Origin: Streptococcus mitis
Lineage (GTDB): Bacteria > Bacillota > Bacilli > Lactobacillales > Streptococcaceae
Assembly (NCBI RefSeq): GCF_013305725.1
Contig: NZ_CP047883.1
Coordinates: 723,001-787,000, forward strand
Reading direction: 5' to 3'
Length of the DNA stretch: 64,000 nt
Shown: one piece after another, positions 12,876-40,625 of the stretch
Numbering within the stretch: the stretch's first letter is position 1
Layout of the letters: each line of letters begins with the position of its first letter
Position numbers and translations under genes: made by a program
The notes under the pieces: model-generated
What the model was told of the DNA's origin: nothing
Database searches by the model: none
The model's input: the letters and a program-made list of their open reading frames with translations, nothing else

Positions 12876-13712
12876 ATGAGTGATTTGAAAGCGATTCAGG
12901 CTCGTAGTCTGGAAATGGCTGAATATTTCGTCGCATTTTGTAAAGAACATGATTTGCTTTGTTATCTTTGTGGTGGAGGTGCTATTGGTGCCCTTCGAAA
13001 CAAGGGGTTCATTCCTTGGGACGACGACCTAGACTTTTTTATGCCCCGTAAGGATTATGAAAAATTGGCAGAATTATGGCCTCGTTATGCAGATGAACGT
13101 TACTTCTTATCAAAGAGTAATAAGGATTTTGTCGATCGTAATCTTTTTATTACCATTCGTGACAAGGAGACCACCTGTATCAAGCCTTATCAGCAGGATT
13201 TGGATTTGCCACATGGTCTGGCCTTGGATGTTTTGCCTTTGGATTATTATCCGAAAAATCCAGCTGAGCGGAAAAAACAGGTTCTTTGGGCACTGATTTA
13301 TTCACTGTTTTGTGCGCAAACTATTCCAGAAAAGCATGGCGCACTTATGAAATGGGGAAGCCGTATTTTACTGGGGGTGACTCCCAAATCTCTCCGCTAT
13401 CATATTTGGAAAAAAGCTGAAAAAGAAATGACCAAGTACAGTCTGGCTGAGAGCGATGGAATCACGGAGTTATGCTCAGGGCCTGGCTACATGAGAAATA
13501 AGTACCCAATCGCATCTTTTGAAGATAATCTTTTCTTGCCATTTGAAGAGACAGAGATGCCCATTCCAGTTGGCTACGATGCCTATCTCAGCACTGCTTT
13601 TGGTGATTATATGACACCTCCACCAGCAGATAAGCAGCTACCACATCATGATGCGATTATAGCAGACATGGATAAGAGTTATAGAGAGTACAAGGGAGAA
13701 TACGGAGTATGA
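12876..13712 (+). CDS. LicD family phosphotransferase (licD3-like)
   Basis: 278 residues. It carries the LicD nucleotidyltransferase-fold signature GGGAIGALRNKGFIPWDDDLDFFMPRKDYEKL (about residues 29-60, with the metal-binding WDDDLD) and the C-terminal FGDYMTPPPADKQLPHHD block. LicD proteins transfer phosphorylcholine, or related phospho-substituents, from CDP-activated donors to teichoic acid sugars. It has a good ribosome binding site (GAGGAGAG). It lies in a run with a glycosyltransferase and other LicD modules, matching the teichoic-acid region with an extra licD known next to the aro operon of pneumococci. The precise acceptor is unknown. Confidence 0.85.
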   Translation: MSDLKAIQARSLEMAEYFVAFCKEHDLLCYLCGGGAIGALRNKGFIPWDDDLDFFMPRKDYEKLAELWPRYADERYFLSKSNKDFVDRNLFITIRDKETTCIKPYQQDLDLPHGLALDVLPLDYYPKNPAERKKQVLWALIYSLFCAQTIPEKHGALMKWGSRILLGVTPKSLRYHIWKKAEKEMTKYSLAESDGITELCSGPGYMRNKYPIASFEDNLFLPFEETEMPIPVGYDAYLSTAFGDYMTPPPADKQLPHHDAIIADMDKSYREYKGEYGV

Positions 13713-14677
13713 TGGGAGAAAAAATAAGCGTTATCGTTCCAGTCTACAATGTAGAAAACTATCTGGAACGATGTGTGGAGTCAATTCTTCATCAGACTTA
13801 TACCAATTTTGAACTAATCCTAATAAATGATGGATCTACTGATTCTAGTGGACAAATCTGTGATCATTTAGCAAATCAGTATGAGAATATCAAAGTTTAC
13901 CATATCGAAAATGCTGGTGTTTCAAATGCTAGAAATATGGGAATTCAGCTAGCGACGGGTTCTTGGGTTACCTTTATTGATAGCGATGATTTTGCTACCC
14001 AAGATTACTTAGCTACTTTAGCAAGTGCAGTTGAAGGGTTGAATGTAGGCTTTGTAATTGCTCCTCTACACCATATCAAAAATGGCATTGTAACAGACCT
14101 ACCTCCACATTCTGGAAAAACAGAACTCTGGTCAACAGAAGAAACCATGAAGGAACTACTGATGACTAGCAGAACGTCATTTTTTCCAGTCGCAAAACTG
14201 TTTAAGAGAGACCTGCTTGCGGATGAAAAGTTTAATACAAATTATCACCTAGCTGAAGATGCCTTATTTTTAACGGAATTGTTACTAAAGACAAGATGTA
14301 GTAGTGTATTCATTGATAAACCAATTTATTATTATGATCATCGTGAGGGAAGTGCGACAACATCTGTTAATCGGCATGTATTTGACACTATAAAAGTTTA
14401 TACGAGAATTATTGCTCAAGTATCACAAGTCTTTCCTAATTTAAAATACGAATTAATAAACAGAGAATGTTGGTCGTACATCACAGTTTACGATAAGATT
14501 ATCTTTACTTCACGTGAAGAGTATCAAAAGGAGAAAGCCGAGCTGAGGACTTGGATTGTTCAGCATCGACGCGAAATATGGAAGGATGCTTATTTCACTA
14601 CTTTTCGCAAGGTAGCGATCTTTTCACTTGTCATTTCTCCATGGCTATATAAGAAAATTGTTGGATTAAAAAACTAA
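13709..14677 (+). CDS. family 2 glycosyltransferase
   Basis: 322 residues, GT-A fold. The N-terminal nucleotide-sugar domain shows ISVIVPVYNVENYLERCVESI, the LINDGSTDSSGQICD block, ENAGVSNARNMGI and the metal-binding FIDSDDF (about residues 90-96). The C-terminal part is hydrophobic and basic and may touch the membrane. It probably adds a sugar to a lipid-linked teichoic acid or related precursor; donor and acceptor are not visible. It overlaps licD by four bases (ATGATG), so the two are coupled. Confidence 0.85.
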   Translation: MMGEKISVIVPVYNVENYLERCVESILHQTYTNFELILINDGSTDSSGQICDHLANQYENIKVYHIENAGVSNARNMGIQLATGSWVTFIDSDDFATQDYLATLASAVEGLNVGFVIAPLHHIKNGIVTDLPPHSGKTELWSTEETMKELLMTSRTSFFPVAKLFKRDLLADEKFNTNYHLAEDALFLTELLLKTRCSSVFIDKPIYYYDHREGSATTSVNRHVFDTIKVYTRIIAQVSQVFPNLKYELINRECWSYITVYDKIIFTSREEYQKEKAELRTWIVQHRREIWKDAYFTTFRKVAIFSLVISPWLYKKIVGLKN

Positions 14678-14698
14678 TATCATGAGAAGGAGTTGAAA

Positions 14699-16858
14699 AT
14701 GAATTTTTCAAAATTGGATGAATACTTTGAAAAATCAAAACTATGGATTGCGTATCTATTTGTTTTTATTTCGATTTTAAGTATGAGTTCACTGGTTTAT
14801 AAGATAGCAAATCCCCTCTACAAGGGATTATCAGCGATTGTGGTGCTTTATATTTGCTATACCTTATTGTTTAAGTGGAAAGAAATCACAGTAGATCGCA
14901 AATTTCTATCCTTATTTGGACTCTTAGCTGGAAGTCATCTGCTATCAGCTATTTTCAATCGCTCTGGACATCTGATTGGAAATGTGATTGAAATCCTCTT
15001 CATGGTAACCTATGTTTTATTATTTACCATGTTACAATCAGGGAAACTTAAAAAATTATTTGACTGGATTGCTTATACGGTTCAAATTGTATCTTTTTCT
15101 TCAGCAATTTTTGCGTTTGGTTTATTGATAAGTAGAGTCCTTATCCTATTTAAGATTGGCGAACAATCTTATTACTATGGTGTTATGAATGGACGTCTGT
15201 GGGGGATTGTTAATCCAAATGCTAGTGCGATATTTTCATACATTAGCATTATTTTGGCTATGTATTTGATTCATAAAGGAAGTAAATATTCTGTCTATCT
15301 TAAACTGAATAATGTGATTCAATTAGTTTACTTCGCAACCATGCAAAGTAGAGGAGCTTTATTATCTTTAGTGTTAATGATTGGGTTTTATAGTTTCTTT
15401 ATTAACGGTGGCAAGTTAGCTAAGCGATTTCTAATCTTTATTGTTTCTGCTTTACTTGTTTCTGCTGCTAACATCGGATTGAGTTATGTAACCTCTATTT
15501 ACATATCCTCGGGGAAAGCGACTGTATTAGACTTAAATAAAGGACAATCTTATGCAGAAACGGATTCTTCAGTTATAAAAAAAACAGGTGAACTTCATCT
15601 AATAGAAACAACACCTAGTGGTAGAACTTATATTTGGAAAAATGCTATCAAAATGGGAAGCGAGAAACCAATTTTTGGTTATGGTGTACGGAATGTTCCA
15701 GATTATTATACAAAATATTTCAGTAAATTTGAGATTCAAAATTCTCTCATTGGTGGAAACTTCCATAACATTTTGGTAACGGTATTTGTTAGTTCTGGAA
15801 TTTTAGGTTTAGTATCCTTTCTACTTCTACTAGGATATATAATTAAGCGCTTTTTGACTTATTTGATTGTTTCTAAAAAGAACTCTGAAAAGTTTATTAT
15901 GATTCTTTTCTTTGGCATCTTGTTCGGTCAATTATTTGAAAGTCAGATTATGTACTCAACTAATTTTATTAATATTATCTTTTGGTTGATTATTGGTTAT
16001 GGATTAGTTGTTTGCAAACGTGATGAAGGTATTCGTTATCAGGAAGTAACTGATATTAGAGAGATTCAACAGATGGAACTAGGAATCATGGAATACATTC
16101 ATGAAACTTGTCAGAAAATTGGTGTCAAATATTTCCTAGCTTATGGCAGTCTTATCGGTGTGGTTCGTCATAAAGGTTTTATTCCTTGGGATGATGACAT
16201 GGATATCTGTATGTTACGAGAAGATTATGAAAAGTTGCAAGACTATCTTATTGCTAACCCTGATGAACGTTACGAAGCGATGTCTTATAAAAATAATCTC
16301 AACTATGTCTATCCCTTCATGAAAGTGCAGGATAACCATACCTACTTGCTAGAAGAAGATGTTCGCATTGATTCAAATATGGGGATTTATGTAGATATTT
16401 TCCCTGTAGATGGCTACGAGAATGATGCAAATTTCAAGAACAAGATGACGAAGCTGATAAAGAAACGTCAATTGAGTTGCTATACATTTAAAGGTATCAC
16501 CAATACGAAAAGTGCATTAAATTCACTGATACGCTATATTTCAGTTATTATTTTTTATTTCACAAATACAAATAAATACGTTGCACAAATTGAAGAACTT
16601 GCTAAATCACGTAAAGTGTCGGATTATGAGGAAGTGGATTATCTTATCTACAAGGATATGAACAAACCAGTGTGGAGACGCGAATGGCTAGAACAAGTTA
16701 CTACTGGAACATTTGAAGGTAAGAAATTTACCATTCCGAAAAAATATCATGAAATTTTGACCTCAGACTACGGAGATTATATGCAATTACCGCCAGTTGA
16801 ACAAAGAGTATCTCATCATGATTTTAAATTGTGGAAGATTATTAAAAGGTCTAAATGA
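14699..16858 (+). CDS. O-antigen polymerase/ligase-like membrane protein fused to LicD domain
   Basis: 719 residues from the ATG at 14699 (AAGGAG six bases upstream; the TTG at 14693 is less likely). Residues 1 to ~440 hold about 10-12 membrane segments and a large loop with PSGRTYIWKNAIKMGSEKPIFGYG, then NFHNILVTVFVSSGILGL, the pattern of Wzy/WaaL polymerases and ligases. Residues ~450-719 form a full LicD domain (FLAYGSLIGVVRHKGFIPWDDDMDICML, and FTIPKKYHEIL...DYMQLPPVEQR). The likely job is to polymerise lipid-linked repeat units and decorate them with a phospho-substituent. The fusion is continuous with no frameshift. Codon use is AT-richer than in the aro operon. Confidence 0.85.
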   Translation: MNFSKLDEYFEKSKLWIAYLFVFISILSMSSLVYKIANPLYKGLSAIVVLYICYTLLFKWKEITVDRKFLSLFGLLAGSHLLSAIFNRSGHLIGNVIEILFMVTYVLLFTMLQSGKLKKLFDWIAYTVQIVSFSSAIFAFGLLISRVLILFKIGEQSYYYGVMNGRLWGIVNPNASAIFSYISIILAMYLIHKGSKYSVYLKLNNVIQLVYFATMQSRGALLSLVLMIGFYSFFINGGKLAKRFLIFIVSALLVSAANIGLSYVTSIYISSGKATVLDLNKGQSYAETDSSVIKKTGELHLIETTPSGRTYIWKNAIKMGSEKPIFGYGVRNVPDYYTKYFSKFEIQNSLIGGNFHNILVTVFVSSGILGLVSFLLLLGYIIKRFLTYLIVSKKNSEKFIMILFFGILFGQLFESQIMYSTNFINIIFWLIIGYGLVVCKRDEGIRYQEVTDIREIQQMELGIMEYIHETCQKIGVKYFLAYGSLIGVVRHKGFIPWDDDMDICMLREDYEKLQDYLIANPDERYEAMSYKNNLNYVYPFMKVQDNHTYLLEEDVRIDSNMGIYVDIFPVDGYENDANFKNKMTKLIKKRQLSCYTFKGITNTKSALNSLIRYISVIIFYFTNTNKYVAQIEELAKSRKVSDYEEVDYLIYKDMNKPVWRREWLEQVTTGTFEGKKFTIPKKYHEILTSDYGDYMQLPPVEQRVSHHDFKLWKIIKRSK

Positions 16859-16915
16859 CGGGATTGGGATTAAGAAACGTTTAAAAATATAGTCAAATTT
16901 AGGAGAATAAAACCT

Positions 16916-17728
16916 ATGTCTGAAAGAACTTTAACTCTTGAAGAAATCAAACAAGTAGAATTAGATATTTTAAAGTATCTTCATGATCTTTGTGAACAAC
17001 ATCAAATCAAATATTTTATTGATTTTGGAACATTACTAGGAGCTGTACGCCATAAAGGATTTATACCTTGGGATGATGATACAGATATTTCCTTAGCGCG
17101 TGATGAATTTGAAAAACTGTATAAGGTTTTAAAAAATGAAAATCATCCCTACTACAAATTAATTTCATTTAGAGAAACAAAGGGGTATCCTTACAGTTAT
17201 ATGCGAGTCTATGATGTGAGGACACGTCGAGATGCTAATCTTATAGATAAAACGGTTGTATTGGGAACCTGCGTTGACATCTTTCCATATGATGGTGTCG
17301 TAACGAAAGAAAGTGACCAGAAGAAAATGAAGCTCTACAAATATTTCATTCGTCTTTCTTCTTTGAATTTTAAAGGGATTAAGTCTGAGAATGGTGGACT
17401 TAAAAATCTCCCTCGTTATATGGGATCAGCTATTTTTCGCTTAACTTCCCCACAGATATGGAACCAAAAATTAGAGAGTCTTGCTTTGAAGTATAGTGTG
17501 GATCAAGCAACAGATCTCACTTGTACTATCTATGATCCCTATTATCCAGATGGTATAAAAAAAGAATGGCTCTATGATTTGATTGATATGCCGTATGAAA
17601 ACATTGTGGTCAAGGTTCCGAGAAAATACCATGAATTACTTGTCTACGAATTTGGAGAAAAATATATGAGTCCGCCACCCATTGAGCAACAAGTGCCAGG
17701 AGGAGATAAAAATTATTGGATTGATTAG
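16916..17728 (+). CDS. LicD family phosphotransferase
   Basis: 270 residues, a stand-alone LicD protein. The active-site block is FIDFGTLLGAVRHKGFIPWDDDTDISLARDEFEKL, and the C-terminal motif is VPRKYHELLVYEFGEKYMSPPP. It resembles the LicD half of the upstream fusion more than the first LicD of the island (both share VRHKGFIPWDDD and a YHE-L block), suggesting duplication. AGGAGA lies seven bases before the ATG. It presumably adds phosphorylcholine or a similar group at another position of the same polymer. Confidence 0.85.
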   Translation: MSERTLTLEEIKQVELDILKYLHDLCEQHQIKYFIDFGTLLGAVRHKGFIPWDDDTDISLARDEFEKLYKVLKNENHPYYKLISFRETKGYPYSYMRVYDVRTRRDANLIDKTVVLGTCVDIFPYDGVVTKESDQKKMKLYKYFIRLSSLNFKGIKSENGGLKNLPRYMGSAIFRLTSPQIWNQKLESLALKYSVDQATDLTCTIYDPYYPDGIKKEWLYDLIDMPYENIVVKVPRKYHELLVYEFGEKYMSPPPIEQQVPGGDKNYWID

Positions 17729-32128: not shown

Positions 32129-32497
32129 ATGGCATTGAACATTGAAAACATTATTGCTGAAATTAAAGAAGCTTCAATCCTTGAATTGAACGACCTTGTA
32201 AAAGCTATCGAAGAAGAATTTGGTGTAACTGCAGCTGCTCCTGTAGCTGTTGCTGCAGCTGGTGCTGCTGACGCTGGTGCTGCTAAAGATTCATTCGACG
32301 TTGAATTGACATCTGCAGGCGACAAAAAAGTTGGCGTTATCAAAGTTGTACGTGAAATCACTGGTCTTGGTCTTAAAGAAGCTAAAGAACTTGTTGACGG
32401 TGCACCAGCACTTGTTAAAGAAGGCGTTGCAACTGCAGAAGCTGAAGAAATCAAAGCTAAATTGGAAGAAGCTGGAGCTTCAGTTACTCTTAAATAA
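32129..32497 (+). CDS. rplL: 50S ribosomal protein L7/L12
   Basis: 122 residues from the ATG at 32129, behind GGAGG. It has an N-terminal dimerisation helix, an alanine-rich hinge ([18 protein letters not shown], about 35-52) and the C-terminal factor-binding domain ([25 protein letters not shown]). It recruits translation GTPases. Its last codons contain the 15-bp attachment core used by a family of integrative conjugative elements. Confidence 0.97.
32483..32497. other. attachment site of ICESa2603-family elements in the rplL 3' end
   Basis: GTTACTCTTAAATAA is the reverse complement of TTATTTAAGAGTAAC, the 15-bp direct repeat known as the rplL integration core of ICESa2603/ICESsu-type elements. 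It coincides exactly with the rplL stop region. The element-like genes start about 200 bases downstream. Confidence 0.75.
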
Positions 32498-32699: not shown

Positions 32700-32873
32700 A
32701 TGACAAAAGAATTACAATCATCACGCTATATTGTCATTTCATTTTTAATACGTGAAATGGGAATTGACATTATTGAGGCCATATCTCTTATGGCTGAATT
32801 AGAAAAAAGTGGCTTGGTTCGCTTGGAATCAAGTGGAGATTTAATACTCAAAGAACTTGGAGGAGTGCTATGA
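32700..32873 (+). CDS. small hypothetical protein of an integrative element
   Basis: 57 residues from the ATG at 32700, with a perfect CAGGAGG. It is helical (SRYIVISFLIREMGIDIIEAISLMAELEKSG), with no catalytic motif. It overlaps the RepA-like gene by four bases (ATGA), so it is coupled to it. A small ORF in front of repA is a common arrangement in streptococcal integrative conjugative elements, but I cannot assign a function. Confidence 0.55.
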   Translation: MTKELQSSRYIVISFLIREMGIDIIEAISLMAELEKSGLVRLESSGDLILKELGGVL

Positions 32874-33438
32874 AACGAATTACCGCAAATCAATACCAAA
32901 CTTCAGAACGGTATTACAAATTACCTAAAATTCTTTTTGAGGATGAGAATTATATGGATATGAAACTAGAAGTAAAGGTGGCTTATTCTATTTTAAAAGA
33001 TCGTTTAGAATTATCTCTCAGTCGTGGTTGGATAGATGAAGAAGGAGCAGTCTATTTAGTATTTTCTAATTCTAAACTGATGAAGCTATTAGGTTGTTCG
33101 AAGTCAAAATTACTGTCCATCAAAAAAATTCTTAAAGAATATGACTTAATTGATGAAGTCCAACAGTCTTCAAGTGAGAAAGGAAGACTAGCTAATAAGA
33201 TTTACTTAGGGGAATTATCTTCTACCCCAGTAGCTAATTCAAACAGGCCTAGTGTTAAAAAAGATTAGGGCAGGTCAAAAATGAAACGGCCCCCGTCTCA
33301 CATTCAGCCCCTAGTGAGACTGAAGTTAGTGAGACTAAATATAGTGAGATTGAATTTTTATTTATTGAGGATGAGAGGAACTCTCAACCTATCTTGAAAA
33401 GAAAAGTAGAAAAGGTTACATTTCTTTATCATTTTTAA
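32870..33438 (+). pseudogene. repA: RepA-type replication initiator, frameshifted remnant
   Basis: The first 132 residues (MKRITANQYQTSERYYKLPK..., then KVAYSILKDRLELSLSRGWIDEEG and LLGCSKSKLLSIKKILKEYDLIDE) match the winged-helix N-terminal domain of RepA_N-type initiators of ICEs and plasmids. The frame stops at 33268. Starting at the last base of that stop (33268), another frame continues the expected protein (GQVKNETAPVSHSAPSETEV, then SETKYSEIEF) to 33438. A one-base loss or two-base gain near 33266 therefore broke the gene. The C-terminal part usual in the family is missing. Confidence 0.75.
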
Positions 33439-33979
33439 CCTTGCTTTACTTGTCTTAGCATGCTGAACAGGATATAAGTGGAAGAGGGGATAGAAAATAA
33501 TCTGAACCAGTTCAAAACTTATTCTATTTTTTAGGACATTAAAAATTTTAGAAATTGATTCTTTCTTAAATTTGAATTTCACTAGTAGTGTAAAGATGAT
33601 TTTTTCTTTGAATAAAATCTGAATTTTCTCTGATACAATCTCAAATGTCAAGGTTCAATAATTGTTGCTTCAGTAGGTGATGATGGTCTAGATTAAAATA
33701 ATCAAGAAGCATTGAAACATTACGTTGGAGAACTTAAGGGGGAGGATTATTCACATATAGATGGGAAAGTTATGGTTATTTCTGCTGGATAAGAAATGAT
33801 ATTGATGGCACTCAAATTATATTATTAAATATTACGAATTTTGTTCAAGATAGTGTAAAATAGATTTATACTAGTTTCTAAAAATTTAATTTACATTACA
33901 AATTGATGTATTGAGACTATTCTTTGTCAGAAATACGGAGCTTTGCAGGTAGTTCTCTAAAATTTTTTGAGGTGATAGA
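33439..33979. other. degraded, AT-rich junction between element remnant and lantibiotic immunity genes
   Basis: No intact gene. A 97-residue reverse-strand reading (33358-33651) has no ribosome binding site or recognisable motif and is not called. From 33634 there is a decayed protease-like fragment. The last ~110 bases precede the response regulator gene and end in a GAGGTGA ribosome binding site. Confidence 0.55.
33634..33862 (+). pseudogene. decayed subtilisin-like protease fragment, LanP/NisP-like
   Basis: From 33634 one frame reads YNLKCQGSIIVASVGDDGLD, a stop at 33694, then NNQEALKHYVGELKGEDYSH and IDGKVMVISAG, a stop at 33790, with a shifted frame after that. GSIIVASVGDDG resembles the conserved strand and oxyanion-hole loop of subtilases (GSIVVAA-GND type). 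The following N-Q...GKV pattern recalls NisP as I remember it. In nisin-type clusters lanP directly precedes lanR-lanK, as here. It has no start codon, the catalytic Asp and His regions are missing, and there are in-frame stops. Confidence 0.4.
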
Positions 33980-34663
33980 ATGTATAAGATATTAGTTGTA
34001 GATGACGATTTTGAAATTTTGAAATTGATGCGAACTATTTTAGAGATGAAAAACTATCAGGTAACGACGTATCAAGAAGTGACCGTACCAATCAATATTA
34101 GTAATTTCAAAGGATTCGATTTGATTTTATTAGATGTAATGATGCCTAATATAGATGGTATGCAAATTTGTAAGCAGATTAGAAATAAAGTAAGCTCCCC
34201 TATTATTTTTGTTAGTGCAAAAGATACCGAAGAAGATATAGTATCAGGATTGAATTTAGGAGGAGATGACTATATTACAAAACCTTTCAGCATCAATCAA
34301 TTAATTGCTAAAGTTGCTGCAAATCTCAAACGAGAAGAACGATACAAACAAGGTGAATTAAGTAATCAAATTGTTCGAGAATTATCTCCAATAACGATTT
34401 ATTTACAAGAAAAAATTGTTTGTATTAATGGAGATAGTCTTGCCTTTACAAGTAGGGAATATGATATCATAGAGCTATTATCTAGCAATCCAAGAAAAAT
34501 TTTTACTGTACAAGATATATATGAAAACGTTTATGATGATGATGCTGAAACCCTCTTTCGTTCAATATCTGAGTATATCTATCAAATAAGATTAAAATTC
34601 TCATCCTATGGAATTAATCCTATAAAAACAGTTAGAGGTATGGGATACAAGTGGCATGATTAA
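33980..34663 (+). CDS. lanR: response regulator, OmpR family, LanR/SalR-like
   Basis: 227 residues. The receiver domain has the acidic pair in VVDDD, the phosphoacceptor Asp in FDLILLDVMMP (about residue 53) and the conserved Lys in YITKPF. The C-terminal winged helix (about 130-227) ends ISEYIYQIRLKFSSYGINPIKTVRGMGYKW. It overlaps the kinase gene by eight bases. Together with the transporter genes downstream it matches nisin, subtilin or salivaricin-type regulators, expected to sense a lantibiotic and induce the immunity genes. Confidence 0.88.
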   Translation: MYKILVVDDDFEILKLMRTILEMKNYQVTTYQEVTVPINISNFKGFDLILLDVMMPNIDGMQICKQIRNKVSSPIIFVSAKDTEEDIVSGLNLGGDDYITKPFSINQLIAKVAANLKREERYKQGELSNQIVRELSPITIYLQEKIVCINGDSLAFTSREYDIIELLSSNPRKIFTVQDIYENVYDDDAETLFRSISEYIYQIRLKFSSYGINPIKTVRGMGYKWHD

Positions 34664-35999
34664 GAAGAATACTACAATTAGAGGACGTATAATAAGGACT
34701 GTTTTAGAACTAGTAACAGGTACGTTACTGAGTATACTTTTATTTTTTATATTTACTTATTTACTTGTTTTTACAAGACAATTAAATGTATACGACTCTA
34801 AAATTGAAATTTCAGTGAGTGATACCAGCAATTTAAGTGATGTAGTTCAAGCAATGAATAACTCTATATTTGACTATGTTGTATTTAATCGCAAGACAGG
34901 TACAATTGAAGAGGGTAATTATCAAAAAAAGGATTTGCCTGCCTATCGAGAAGTTTTTGCTAAAAATGAATCTGTAAGTAATAGTGAGGTGTATTATGGG
35001 TATTATGCTAATTCAGAGATTGTACTTACTGTCAGGCAACCCATGATACCTGAGTTTGTTAATCCGAATTTGCGTCACATTTCATTTAATCTATTTTCTT
35101 ATTTATTTTTCTTCGTTTTCGAAACGATTTTACTCATTTGGTCACTTACAAGATTAATAAAAGAATTTTCAAAAAATTTTCTACTTATACAAAAAAAAGC
35201 TTTAAACATGGGGCAGTTAACATTTAAAGAAAAAAACATTCCCGCTCAAATACAAGAGTTCGATGAAATTCTCTCTGTATTATATCAAAAGGACGACGAG
35301 TTAACTAATTTACTCAAATCAGAGAGAAGGGAGAAGGAAGATTTATCTTTTCAAGTTGGTGCATTAGCTCATGATGTAAAAACTCCTTTAACAGTACTAA
35401 AGGGAAATTTAGAGTTGCTTGAATTAACTAACCTGACTGATCAACAGAAGGAATATACTCAGTCAATGAATAACAGTATAGTGATTTTTGAAAGATACTT
35501 TAGTTCAATGATTGATTATTCAAGATTACTAATTGAAGATAAAGATTATGGGGAACAGATATATTTACCTGATTTTTTAAGTGATCTGTCAGTAGAGGCG
35601 AAATCTGTAATGAATAATGCAAAGGTTGATTTCAAAATTATTAATACTACAAAATTAATATTTTTTAAGGGAAATCGCTTTAATTTAAATCGGGCATTAA
35701 TTAACATTTTAGCAAATGCAGCAAGATATAGTTCTGGAGAAAAAAAAGTTACGCTTACTATCATTGAGGAAACAGAGTATATTAATTTTGTAGTGTGGAA
35801 TAATGGTCTGCCTTTTACTGAACAGTCCTTATTAAATGCAGATAAGTTATTTTATACTGAGAATAAAGGTAGGAATAATAAGCACTATGGTTTAGGGTTA
35901 GCATTTGCTAAACAAGTTGCAACTAGACATTTAGGAGAATTGTTTTTATCAAATCCAGATAGAGGTGGCGCTCAAGTGACGTTGCTTATTAAAAAATAA
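34656..35999 (+). CDS. lanK: sensor histidine kinase, LanK-like
   Basis: 447 residues. Two membrane segments (about 12-36 and 145-168) enclose a ~110-residue extracellular sensor. The dimerisation box is FQVGALAHDVKTPLTVLKGN with the phosphoacceptor His. The ATPase domain has the N box NRALINILANAARYS, FVVWNNGLPF and GLGLAFAKQVATRHLG. The large extracellular domain fits lantibiotic-sensing kinases such as NisK rather than the short-loop BceS type. The ligand is inferred only. A terminator (36045-36086) separates it from the transporter genes. Confidence 0.85.
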   Translation: MIKKNTTIRGRIIRTVLELVTGTLLSILLFFIFTYLLVFTRQLNVYDSKIEISVSDTSNLSDVVQAMNNSIFDYVVFNRKTGTIEEGNYQKKDLPAYREVFAKNESVSNSEVYYGYYANSEIVLTVRQPMIPEFVNPNLRHISFNLFSYLFFFVFETILLIWSLTRLIKEFSKNFLLIQKKALNMGQLTFKEKNIPAQIQEFDEILSVLYQKDDELTNLLKSERREKEDLSFQVGALAHDVKTPLTVLKGNLELLELTNLTDQQKEYTQSMNNSIVIFERYFSSMIDYSRLLIEDKDYGEQIYLPDFLSDLSVEAKSVMNNAKVDFKIINTTKLIFFKGNRFNLNRALINILANAARYSSGEKKVTLTIIEETEYINFVVWNNGLPFTEQSLLNADKLFYTENKGRNNKHYGLGLAFAKQVATRHLGELFLSNPDRGGAQVTLLIKK

Positions 36000-36044
36000 T
36001 TCTGTAAGGATATATTAGATAGCTTCCATATAATAGTTATGTAT

Positions 36045-36086
36045 AAAAATAGATGGTTTTCTAAATTGAGGACTGTCTATTTTTTT
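36045..36086 (+). terminator. terminator between lanRK and lanFEG
   Basis: AAAAATAGA / TCTATTTTT arms around a ~20-base loop, then a T run. It makes the transporter operon a separate transcript. Confidence 0.65.
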
Positions 36087-36109
36087 AATTTTGTAAAATT
36101 GGAAATTCT

Positions 36110-36160
36110 GAACAAATTTTGAAAAATAAAGTATAACATACAAGTATAAAACAAGGAGGA
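36110..36160 (+). promoter_or_regulatory. candidate regulated promoter of the lanFEG-lanI operon
   Basis: An AT-rich stretch with a possible -10 (TATAAC at ~36132) and little -35 similarity, followed by ACAAGGAGG before lanF. Weak core elements are expected if activation depends on the neighbouring response regulator, but no defined operator repeat is certain. Confidence 0.35.
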
Positions 36161-36169
36161 ATTATAGTT

Positions 36170-36856
36170 ATGAATATACAAGTTCAAAAACTTAGAAAAT
36201 CATATAAGGATAGAGAAGTACTGAAAAATATTTCTTTTGAAATAAAAGAGGGGAGTATTTGTGGATTATTAGGTATTAATGGTGCAGGAAAATCAACAAT
36301 TATGAAGATTATTTTTGGTCTTGAAAATGCTGATAGTGGTACGGTTATTTTTAATGGGAAAAAAAATGCGGGTATATATGAGATTGGAGCGCTTATTGAA
36401 ACTCCAGCTATCTACATGAACTTATCTGCTTATGATAACTTAAAAACAAGAGCATTGTTATATGACATTTCTGACGAACGAATTAATGAAGTATTAAACT
36501 TGATTGGGCTATCTAATACGGGAAAGAAAAAAGCAGGGAGCTTTTCTTTAGGTATGAAACAACGTTTGGGATTAGGTATGGCAATAATTACTAGTCCAGA
36601 TTTGCTCATTTTAGATGAACCTACCAATGGATTGGATCCAGATGGTATAAAGGAATTGTTGAATTTAATGATTTCTTTAAAGAAATCAGGAATGACAATT
36701 CTTTTATCTAGCCATCAACTGTATGAAGTTAGTAAAGTGGCAGATAAAGTTGTTATTTTACATGATGGTCAAATTTTTTACGATGGTTCGAATGTTCAAA
36801 GTGATGATTTAGAATCTTTATTTATAAGAATTGTTCATGGAGGTGACGCAATATGA
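36170..36856 (+). CDS. lanF: lantibiotic immunity ABC transporter ATPase, LanF-like
   Basis: 228 residues. Walker A is GINGAGKST, the signature is FSLGMKQRLGLG, Walker B is LLILDEPTNGLD and the switch His is in LLSSHQL. The Q-loop position reads IGALIETPAIYMNLSAYDNL, with Glu replacing Gln. This E-loop variant marks LanF and related peptide-antibiotic protection transporters. It energises expulsion of lantibiotic from the membrane with the two permeases that follow, and overlaps the first by four bases. Confidence 0.9.
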   Translation: MNIQVQKLRKSYKDREVLKNISFEIKEGSICGLLGINGAGKSTIMKIIFGLENADSGTVIFNGKKNAGIYEIGALIETPAIYMNLSAYDNLKTRALLYDISDERINEVLNLIGLSNTGKKKAGSFSLGMKQRLGLGMAIITSPDLLILDEPTNGLDPDGIKELLNLMISLKKSGMTILLSSHQLYEVSKVADKVVILHDGQIFYDGSNVQSDDLESLFIRIVHGGDAI

Positions 36857-37593
36857 TAAAAATATTTAAATCAGAATGGTTAAAACAGCGAAAAAATACA
36901 TCCAAAAAATTCTTGATAATAGCTCCTGGATTGTCGATTTTAATAGCTGTATTACTTGTTGGACCGAGTATTCTAGAAAGTTTTTCAATATATTGGTGGG
37001 AAGCCGTCTTTTTGTACACGCTTATTGGATTGTTATTTTTATATGATTATAAAGCAGAAGAAGCTGCAGGAAACTTCCAGAATATATACTTTCGAAATGA
37101 TAGCATAAAAATATATATCGTAAAGATACTTTTAAAATTAAAAGATTTACTCATTTCGAACGTATGGTTTTTAGCTATATTATTATTTACAAGTAATTTT
37201 TTGTATGGCGACTTAATATCATTGAATATAATTGGTGACTTAATTTGTTTAGTACTTATTTCGATAACATCCATATGGGTATTGCCACTCTTGTATCTAT
37301 TTTCGAAACGGATCAACCCCTATATCTTAGTATCTATTAACTCCTTGATTTGTTTTTTGGTTGCACCTTTTATCGCTCAAAGTAGCTTTTGGTTCTTCTT
37401 TCCTTTTACATATCATTATAAAATTGCTTATAGTCTTATGTATATAAAACCGTCAGGAGATTTAGATTTAACAAATCATGTAACAGACGTTAAAATGGTA
37501 GTATTTACCGTATTTCTATCATTGATTCTATTTATTGTTTCTTTGTTAATGTTAAATTGGAGGTTAAGTAATGATCCAATTGCTAAAAAGTGA
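36853..37593 (+). CDS. lanE: lantibiotic immunity ABC permease, LanE-like
   Basis: 246 residues with six membrane segments. The N-terminus MIKIFKSEWLKQRKNTSKKFL is the typical start of MutE/EpiE/LanE permeases (short amphipathic KSE-LK motif before the first membrane helix). It overlaps lanF by four bases and the second permease by 23, so the three are translated in concert. It is strongly AT-rich compared with the housekeeping genes. Confidence 0.83.
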   Translation: MIKIFKSEWLKQRKNTSKKFLIIAPGLSILIAVLLVGPSILESFSIYWWEAVFLYTLIGLLFLYDYKAEEAAGNFQNIYFRNDSIKIYIVKILLKLKDLLISNVWFLAILLFTSNFLYGDLISLNIIGDLICLVLISITSIWVLPLLYLFSKRINPYILVSINSLICFLVAPFIAQSSFWFFFPFTYHYKIAYSLMYIKPSGDLDLTNHVTDVKMVVFTVFLSLILFIVSLLMLNWRLSNDPIAKK

Positions 37594-38233
37594 AATGATT
37601 AAATTTAAAGGTTCGTATCAACTATACATTATTTTGATTTTGTCTACTATACAACTATTGACAATTCCAATTTACATATTATCTGTAAATAACACAATTG
37701 TATTGGAAAATATTATCTTTTTACCCATGTTAGGCTATTGTATGATAACTACGATAATCACTTTATTAGTATCTGAACAAGAAATCAATGCTAATAATTA
37801 TCAGAATATTAAAGGCTCGAGAAATACAGCCAGTATATGGGGAGCGAAAATTTTTGTGTTAGATTTACTATTATCTTTACTTACTATTCCTTTATGGGTA
37901 GTTGTAGGTATAGAGTTAGAACACTTTTCATATTATTTTTACGTAGGAATAGTTAGTTGGTTATTACTAATATTGCTAAATCATTTCCACATGCTATTGA
38001 CATTGTTTATTGCGAAAGGTGGCAATTTACTTATTGCTGTTGTAGAAAGTTTATTTATATTATTTGCAACAAATAAAGTTTTTCTTAATATTTTTTGGAT
38101 TCCAGTAATTTTACCAGTTAATATAATTTTAGAAAATAATTTTAGAAGCACAACTAATTTATTAGCTTTAACTTTTTATGTTGTATTATTGTTTGTTGCT
38201 AATTTAGTAGTTGTAAGCAGAAAAGGTGTTTAA
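37571..38233 (+). CDS. lanG: lantibiotic immunity ABC permease, LanG-like
   Basis: 220 residues, about six membrane segments. The N-terminus MIQLLKSEMIKFKGSYQLYI repeats the KSE-K motif of its partner. Length and order (ATPase, permease, permease) match LanFEG systems. Its ribosome binding site, GGAGG, lies inside the end of the preceding gene. About 160 non-coding bases with no clear signal separate it from the lipoprotein gene. Confidence 0.83.
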   Translation: MIQLLKSEMIKFKGSYQLYIILILSTIQLLTIPIYILSVNNTIVLENIIFLPMLGYCMITTIITLLVSEQEINANNYQNIKGSRNTASIWGAKIFVLDLLLSLLTIPLWVVVGIELEHFSYYFYVGIVSWLLLILLNHFHMLLTLFIAKGGNLLIAVVESLFILFATNKVFLNIFWIPVILPVNIILENNFRSTTNLLALTFYVVLLFVANLVVVSRKGV

Positions 38234-38395
38234 TTATATATTCTGATGGAAATGAAGAAAGTGTTTAATTTTTCGATGGAAGTTTGGGAGTTGTTTTGAC
38301 TTTACTTTATAACCAAAATAAATCTGTAAAGACATATTGGAGAGAGGCGTTATTGATTTTTGATAATTTAACTATAGAAAATTAGGAGGAGAACT

Positions 38396-39058
38396 ATGAA
38401 ATTCAAAAAGATCTATCTTTCCGTAATTTTTTTCTTAAGTTTACTTGGATTGACTGGATGTACATATGAGAAGTATGATGTTAAATTTCTCGACTCAAGT
38501 TATAATCGATTTGATTATAAAGGAGAGCATTATGGTGTAACTAATCAATTAATTTCATATGAAGATATTGAAAGTAAAGTAAGCAATCATGATGATACTT
38601 ATGAAATATCTTACGATGATTCCAATAATGAAATAAAGAATGATTTGTTGGAGATTGGTGACTTATATCAGACCAAAAATAGAGAATTTGCCATAAAAAT
38701 TGATAGTACTTTCTATAAATGTAGACTAGTTGATAATATTTCTAAAGAAGAACTACTAAAAGTTTCTGACTTATTTAATGTTCATTTAGTAGGAGGATTT
38801 GCTATCAATGAGCAAGAAGCCAGAGAGTTGAAGATAGGGGAACAATCATTTACAATTACTGAAGAAATTATTCCTAAAGAAGAGCTTAGTGCTACAGTTG
38901 CTAACTTAGATAATCAAGTGAAGTCAGTCACTAGATTATCAGGGGAGCACGAAAGTTGGAAATATGGAGAAATTTGTTCTTTAAAAAATCAGTCTATCCA
39001 TGAGAAAGTAGCAGTTAAATTGAATGGAGAATATCATTTGGCTTTCTTAAGAAGTTAA
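38396..39058 (+). CDS. lanI: NisI-like lantibiotic immunity lipoprotein
   Basis: 220 residues with a lipoprotein signal peptide and lipobox LGLTGC (Cys about residue 21). The mature part shows two related halves: VKFLDSSYNRFDYKGEHYGVT near the start and a C-terminal block SWKYGEICSLKNQSIHEKVAVKLNG. Both resemble, from memory, NisI blocks (VRFDEGSYTNFIYDNKSYFV and WDYGEIHSIRGKSLTEAFAV). NisI binds nisin at the cell surface. An AGGAGGAG precedes the ATG. Position after lanFEG supports a role in lantibiotic protection. Confidence 0.8.
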   Translation: MKFKKIYLSVIFFLSLLGLTGCTYEKYDVKFLDSSYNRFDYKGEHYGVTNQLISYEDIESKVSNHDDTYEISYDDSNNEIKNDLLEIGDLYQTKNREFAIKIDSTFYKCRLVDNISKEELLKVSDLFNVHLVGGFAINEQEARELKIGEQSFTITEEIIPKEELSATVANLDNQVKSVTRLSGEHESWKYGEICSLKNQSIHEKVAVKLNGEYHLAFLRS

Positions 39059-39132: not shown

Positions 39133-39168
39133 AAACCGCTATTCTTAGGAGTAGTGGTTTTTCTTTTT
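39133..39168 (+). terminator. terminator after lanI
   Basis: AAACCGCTATTC-TTA-GGAGTAGTGGTTT stem followed by TTCTTTTTG. Confidence 0.75.
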
Positions 39169-39247: not shown

Positions 39248-39260
39248 GAGCAAATAACTC

Positions 39261-40625
<1,365 letters not shown>

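Follow-up and report, generated by a model that had tools for sequence, protein, structure and literature searches.

Orphan clusters resembling lanFEG have been described in bacteria that produce no lantibiotic, and according to reviews they can confer resistance (PMC10257480, PMC4239024). One of them, spiFEG of Streptococcus infantarius subsp. infantarius BAA-102, is related to the nisin U operon and, expressed in L. lactis, reportedly confers resistance to nisin U (PMC4985645). Here we analyze a locus of this kind in a stretch of 64,000 nucleotides from Streptococcus mitis (hereafter the window), corresponding to positions 723001–787000 of a 2.087-Mb chromosome assembled as a single contig. 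It encodes a two-component system (LanRK), a LanFEG-type transporter and a NisI-like lipoprotein (LanI); as with spiFEG, a LanFEG homologue is found in a non-producer, the species being a different one. In nisin P and nisin U the genes PRKFEG are reported to precede the structural gene (PMC7048740). The orders P-R-K-F-E-G and C-I, together with a regulator box at lanF, are common to these clusters and the window, whereas A, B, T and all but a stub of C are missing from the window, P is not intact there, and the window LanI is just 23–26% identical to that of nisin-P-type clusters.

Partial clusters are known from related species as well. A cheater role has been proposed for partial bacteriocin clusters of pneumococci, and the remaining genes of two of them were reported to be up-regulated (PMC6120550); that reading is based on streptococcin partial clusters, and in the parts of the paper drawn on here the Results describe no nisin-type class I cluster with NisI, nor is rplL mentioned. 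The pldFEKR fragments of S. mitis likewise are immunity and regulation genes left from a lantibiotic operon in the mitis group, but they are of the pneumolancidin type and lie at another locus, and the cited parts of the source do not mention LanI (PMC5729180). The 89K-type integrative and conjugative elements (ICEs) of S. suis at rplL combine, like our locus, lantibiotic remnants with a two-component system, within elements of the ICESa2603 family (PMC4735348). Their SalKR differs from the window LanRK, being described as an orthologue of the salivaricin system that regulates virulence (PMC2358977). For the window locus, we consider it probable that it is a LanRK-controlled resistance module kept by non-producers and derived from a nisin-type cluster by deletion.

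Six intact open reading frames (ORFs) lie consecutively on the + strand between rplL and gdhA (positions 33980–39058), and they were compared with nisin-P-type clusters, whose precursor we take to be nisin P. The first, lanR (33980–34663), encodes an OmpR/PhoB-type response regulator of 227 aa with Response_reg and Trans_reg_C domains, 76% identical to its nisin-P-type counterpart, and lanK (34656–35999) a sensor histidine kinase of 447 aa (HisKA and HATPase_c) with 54–55% identity. The extracellular part of LanK amounts to about 100 residues, judged by eye, so that the large extracellular sensor announced in the original prediction is not unusually large. LanF (36170–36856; 228 aa; 76% identity) is an ABC ATPase with a glutamate in its Q-loop (GALIETPAIY), a residue that a further ABC ATPase in the alignment (L031, 3294–4202) has as well; its best match is the lantibiotic-protection ABC family TIGR03740, with 271.5 bits against a cut-off of 309.75. 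Two permeases follow: LanE (36853–37593; 246 aa), whose sole family match is MutE/EpiE (TIGR03732, 92.5 bits against a cut-off of 145.2), and LanG (37571–38233; 220 aa), which is 52–60% identical to LanG of nisin-P-type loci and matched no NCBIfam or Pfam family. The missed cut-offs say little, because the corresponding proteins of a complete nisin-P-type cluster also fall short (278.3 bits for LanF and 95.0 for LanE). The last gene, lanI (38396–39058), encodes a lipoprotein of 220 aa with a lipobox (LTGC) recognized by eye; it exceeds the cut-offs of NisI/SpaI (NF033433, 93.4 bits; cut-off 35) and of Pfam Spa1_C (38.6 bits; cut-off 26.4), and matches the solved NisI structure 5xhb (phmmer against the PDB, E=1.2e-4). 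An AlphaFold2 model of LanI built from 11 close sequences had a mean pLDDT of 33 and was unusable. The gene content originally predicted, i.e. a two-component system, a LanF-type ATPase with its glutamate, two permeases and a NisI-like lipoprotein, was thus borne out by the ORFs and the family searches, in which LanI passed the NisI/SpaI cut-offs and the best or only matches of LanF and LanE were lantibiotic families, below their cut-offs.

A module of the BceAB/NsrFP type was rejected, as it would need a single large permease of about 650 aa in place of the two found here (246 and 220 aa). Such a layout was observed around other NisI-like proteins that are 25–29% identical to the window LanI (L039, 9041–9451; L040, 4984–5367; L041, 9015–9848; 136, 127 and 277 aa, respectively): their genes adjoin an ABC ATPase, an ORF of 656–661 aa and a response regulator, in L040 also a kinase match, and the L040 gene lies about 7 kb from rplL.

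The intergenic regions of the block contain the scars of further cluster genes. Two fragments on the + strand before lanR match the 455-aa LanP of Streptococcus sp. M334 in tblastn searches: positions 33646–33789 correspond to residues 275–322 (83% identity) and positions 33783–33860 to residues 430–455 (88% identity). Between lanG and lanI, joined to the end of lanG, lies a 3′ stub of lanC (38239–38382, +) that comprises its last 48 codons with an internal stop and is 85% identical over 48 residues to the full-length LanC P0078. The remaining parts stand in the nisin U/P order P′, R, K, F, E, G, C′, I, and the junction between lanG and the stub is identical in five genomes (the window genome G000, G079, G177, G230 and G093). 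Judged from its sequence, the block is the remainder of a P-R-K-F-E-G-A-B-T-C-I cluster after deletion of A, B, T and almost the whole of C. Full-length lanP-like subtilase genes were also seen in two other streptococci (L078, 4822–6186; L080, 4525–5898), where the stretches read around them gave no lanR, lanK, lanE or lanG matches.

The original prediction had seen no lanA, lanB, lanC, lanM or lanT in the window. The window indeed holds no lanA or lanB, and no lanT stands beside the module; the statement fails for lanC, present as a stub only, and the two lanP fragments had been overlooked. At the scale of the genome, LanC P0078 as query recovered the stub alone, in a search that did match in other genomes. 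PF05147 (LanC-like), which we take to be part of LanM as well, had no match in the window genome and matched one of 14 control genomes. PF04738 and PF13575, serving for LanB and LanM, matched neither the window genome nor any control genome, and LanB of genome G255 and LanA P0082 found nothing in the window genome, these queries having no matching control. The orphan character of the nisin-type LanRK, LanFEG and LanI therefore stood, as nothing past the lanC stub was found for P0082-type lanA, lanB, lanC or lanM.

Close relatives of lanI occur in Streptococcus sp. SK643, S. mitis SK564, Streptococcus sp. M334, S. pseudopneumoniae 75_SPSE and S. xiaochunlingii E24, and some of these carry more of the cluster. 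In M334 (L044), a 455-aa subtilase (Peptidase_S8, 155.7 bits) directly precedes lanR, and 2.9 kb separate the regions matching the window lanG and the lanC stub; within these 2.9 kb a lanA-type promoter box runs straight into the middle of lanC. The draft genome of S. pseudopneumoniae 75_SPSE (G255) has P-R-K-F-E-G on one contig (C123) and on another (C128) lanB (987 aa; Lant_dehydr_N, 316.5 bits), lanT (591 aa), lanC (425 aa) and lanI (220 aa, 96% identical to the window). Both contigs end within lanA, the leader half on one and the core half on the other, and were left unjoined. An intact LanA is present in public data as P0082, which has 60 aa and 31 member sequences; it is a precursor of the gallidermin/nisin family, with 68.7 bits for TIGR03731 (cut-off 29.3), and also passes the cut-off of PF02052. 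Full-length LanC P0078 represents 192 sequences, both clusters consisting of protein records without genome context, and no LanC relative was found in the viral contigs searched.

Some rearrangements were noted along with these loci. M334 and G255 share a two-gene insert after lanG (L044, 7129–8288) that the window lacks; its 202-aa ORF has no Pfam match at 1e-4, and the DUF4065-like look that we presumed for it was not borne out by the Pfam scan. S. xiaochunlingii (L046, 7606–10663) has kept R, K and I while F-E-G are gone, and there lanI begins about 60 bases downstream of the lanF promoter box. One public protein, P0074, is the start of a response regulator fused to the later part of LanI.

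A predicted LanR (NisR-type) box, TCTGAACAAATTTTGAA, is located upstream of lanF (36107–36123, +). It has the form TCT-N8-TTT, which compares with TCT-N8-TCT, presumably the NisR consensus, and it is the sole exact box of the type TCTGAACAAATnnTGA in the window. The pattern was written after seeing the window sequence, so that the match in the window alone is circular and the other clusters constitute the test. A slightly looser pattern matched all 15 regions read, upstream of lanF in 14 (the window included) and upstream of lanI in S. xiaochunlingii, as well as four of five lanA regions; it was absent upstream of the window lanR and lanI (0/2). A second survey covered 16 lanF regions, seven of them repeated, and was positive in four of the nine new ones (G131, G205, G210 and G096); first-order resamples of the regions in this survey contained the box in 9 to 162 of 5000 cases. 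Several regions are near-copies and hence not independent. Concerning transcription, a terminator-like hairpin of 17 pairs with a T run follows lanK (36045–36084, +), another lies downstream of lanI (39133–39160, +) and a small one within lanE, whereas the scan gave no terminator-like site between lanG and lanI. Because a hairpin parts lanK from lanF and none separates lanG from lanI, the deletion probably put lanI under LanR together with F-E-G.

These data bear on a first alternative, according to which the module would provide general antimicrobial-peptide resistance, directed at a wide range of lantibiotics or other peptides rather than at the peptide of the ancestral cluster, in the manner of CprABC of C. 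difficile. LanFEG orthologues with a wide substrate range are reported in non-producers (PMC4239024). Moreover, compared with the nisin-P-type set, divergence is faster in LanK and LanI (identity about 55% and 24%) than in LanR and LanF (76% each). On the other hand, the box at lanF is of the nisin type, and biosynthesis genes occur in a relative whose lanI and lanK are almost those of the window, so that a cognate ligand is at hand; we regard this alternative as unlikely.

The retained genes are under purifying selection. Pooled over the five junction-sharing genomes, pN/pS is 0.07 for lanR, 0.28 for lanK, 0.10 for lanF, 0.27 for lanE, 0.26 for lanG and 0.25 for lanI; the frameshifted lanK of G093 was excluded, as its inclusion inflates the pooled lanK value to 0.405. 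Comparison of the window with G079 gave Sd 62.5, Nd 47.5 and pN/pS 0.20 (binomial P 2.5e-16), and P was 4.4e-12 against G230, 4.7e-8 against G177 and 8.0e-15 against G093 (without lanK). In single pairs the ratio reached up to 0.64 (lanG, against G230). The pooled values speak against a neutral remnant, a module on its way out like lanP and RepA that now does nothing. Several genes have gone that way: disruption or shortening has already affected lanP, lanC and RepA, lanK is frameshifted in S. mitis SK564 (G093), F-E-G have gone in S. xiaochunlingii and lanE has decayed in G005. Against this stand the six intact ORFs of the window, the pooled ratios, the P values of the four window comparisons and the size of the LanI protein cluster P0001, which represents 1739 sequences, and we find such a remnant quite improbable. 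Still harder to credit is a regulatory role in which the orphan LanRK would act chiefly on other genes of the host, FEG and I being secondary. The model for this is SalK/SalR, which lies in a hot spot of the ICESa2603-family element 89K and is regarded as the module that regulates a nisin lantibiotic operon (PMC4735348); its deletion lowered the expression of 26 genes and virulence (PMC2358977). Against such a role, the only exact box of the window is at lanF (the chromosome beyond was not scanned for boxes), and FEG and I are under constraint as well. A SalKR-like system as principal interpretation was dropped on account of this box position.

Analysis of the distribution of orphan loci was based on the window LanE, which matched 61 of 284 Streptococcus genomes (one genome per species). 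The 29 genomes with at least 36% identity were mapped and contain 30 loci; weaker matches, including a 54-residue fragment in G223 (49%), were left out, and the stretches read around the loci were mostly 15–20 kb, less for G005. Linked lanB and lanC occur at eight of the 30 loci (G012, G014, G120, G121, G057, G110, the first locus of G114 and, on two contigs, G255). Two loci, G279 and G245, run into contig ends and were counted in neither group; in G245 a partial lanC follows lanG with neither lanB nor lanT in between. The remaining 20 have neither lanB nor a full lanC in the stretch read (G000, G079, G177, G230, G093, G258, G122, G107, G180, G010, G205, G131, G061, G211, G165, G210, G096, G083, the second locus of G114 and G005); class II genes (lanM) near the 30 loci were not looked for by name. 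G114 has a complete cluster elsewhere in its genome. Of the other 19 orphan genomes, 12 gave no match in a LanC search and five gave the stub alone; G258 has half of a lanC and G180 a shortened one. Two of the orphans, G122 and G107, carry nisin-P-type P-R-K-F-E-G-I with proteins 99–100% identical to complete clusters; their junctions differ from each other, and each leaves the last dozen or so lanC codons (by eye) before lanI. A LanE tree was built from 29 rows, without G005 and its broken lanE; given the well-supported branches, the orphan state must have been gained or lost at least five times. The average for shuffled labels is 6.8 changes, and 47 of 500 shuffles were as low, which indicates that the orphan state is only weakly clustered. 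Deep losses may be shared across loci, and related streptococci appear to have reached the orphan state several times.

As to the chromosomal site, the housekeeping flanks claimed in the original prediction hold for rplL and gdhA, but the immediate left neighbour is a RepA_N replication-initiator ORF between rplL and the block (32870–33268, +; 132 aa; PF06970, 107.5 bits). This mobile-element remnant is shorter than the 191-aa version in G230 (L084). The 3′ end of rplL contains an exact 15-bp match to the att site of ICESa2603-family ICEs, TTATTTAAGAGTAAC (32483–32497, −). The att sequence of this family is reported to be located there and to be conserved across the genus (PMC4735348), so its presence alone is no proof of insertion. 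The ORF list between rplL and gdhA holds a RepA_N pair and the module, with no integrase, relaxase or type IV secretion system, which leaves at most an ICE remnant. No second, flanking att copy was found; a right-hand candidate (39254–39268) was dropped, as it has three mismatches and overlaps the gdhA stop, six matches with up to three mismatches being found where 4.62 are expected. The cluster adjoins a Toprim-like protein in M334 and 75_SPSE and an epsilon/zeta pair in these two and SK643, and intact or remnant lantibiotic operons are described as cargo of the ICESa2603 family (PMC4735348). The block is AT-rich as predicted, with a GC content of 0.276–0.304 in 2-kb intervals against about 0.38–0.43 on both flanks; however, two further stretches of the 64 kb go down to 0.320 and 0.334, so that low GC by itself is not special. 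Elsewhere in the window, within AT-rich DNA (14000–17000), a 721-aa ORF with a TTG start (14693–16858, +) fuses a Wzy_C O-antigen ligase (69.8 bits) to LicD (156 bits), and is flanked by ORFs at 12876–13712 and 16916–17728 that look LicD-like by eye.

Under the interpretation that we favour, a resistance module left by deletion of the biosynthesis genes, a nisin-type cluster would have been inserted at rplL, most likely carried by an integrative element. It lost lanA-B-T and the bulk of lanC through a deletion, and lanP decayed too. In this way lanI came to lie beside lanFEG, downstream of the lanF promoter with its LanR box, and would be transcribed from there. LanK would sense an external peptide of the nisin family, most likely the product of a P0082-like lanA in neighbours; LanR would bind the box and switch on lanF-E-G-(C stub)-I, LanFEG would expel the peptide from the membrane and LanI bind it at the surface. 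The cell would thereby resist the peptide without the cost of production. The earlier suggestion that the cell eavesdrops and resists fits the intact genes, the kept box and the purifying selection.

Several observations weigh against this interpretation. The frameshift in lanK of SK564, which has the same module, counts against a need for the sensor there, and together with the loss of F-E-G in S. xiaochunlingii beside retained R, K and I it implies that the whole set is not always needed. The box is absent from five of the nine new lanF regions of the second survey (G061, G211, G165, G083 and the second locus of G114). A weak promoter-like match at 38338–38367 leaves room for a promoter of lanI's own, 46 such matches occurring in the region where 39 are expected. 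The low identity of LanI to its nisin-P-type counterparts means that the ligand may differ from known nisins. Finally, low pN/pS is by itself no proof of a lantibiotic role, and some of the differences among the junction-sharing genomes may be older than the loss, should recombination with complete clusters have brought in segments.

We more tentatively propose, as an idea with slightly less than an even chance, that nisin-type clusters in streptococci repeatedly end, under selection, in the loss of exactly A-B-T-C, which moves lanI up to lanFEG and the LanR-controlled promoter. The result would be a spreading "listen and resist" module cued by the P0082-type nisin-family peptide of a living neighbour. 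Were this true, each producer lineage would keep seeding its own immune non-producers.

Orphan LanFEG loci with demonstrated activity, such as spiFEG, are already known; the origin of the present locus is unusually clear. No paper on this module was found in the openly licensed literature searched, where the strings SVSLCTPGC and CTPGCVTGV occur in no paper text (figure text not covered). The origin of known orphan lantibiotic immunity genes is often unclear, whereas here the scars point to the event itself: five genomes share one junction, and two nisin-P-type genomes have two other junctions with the same outcome. A candidate ligand is suggested by a near relative that has the biosynthesis genes, together with an intact precursor in public data, and the cheater idea for bacteriocins thereby becomes directly testable in oral and nasopharyngeal streptococci. 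The finding also bears on the extent of the ready-made resistance that nisin-like drugs would meet in these bacteria.

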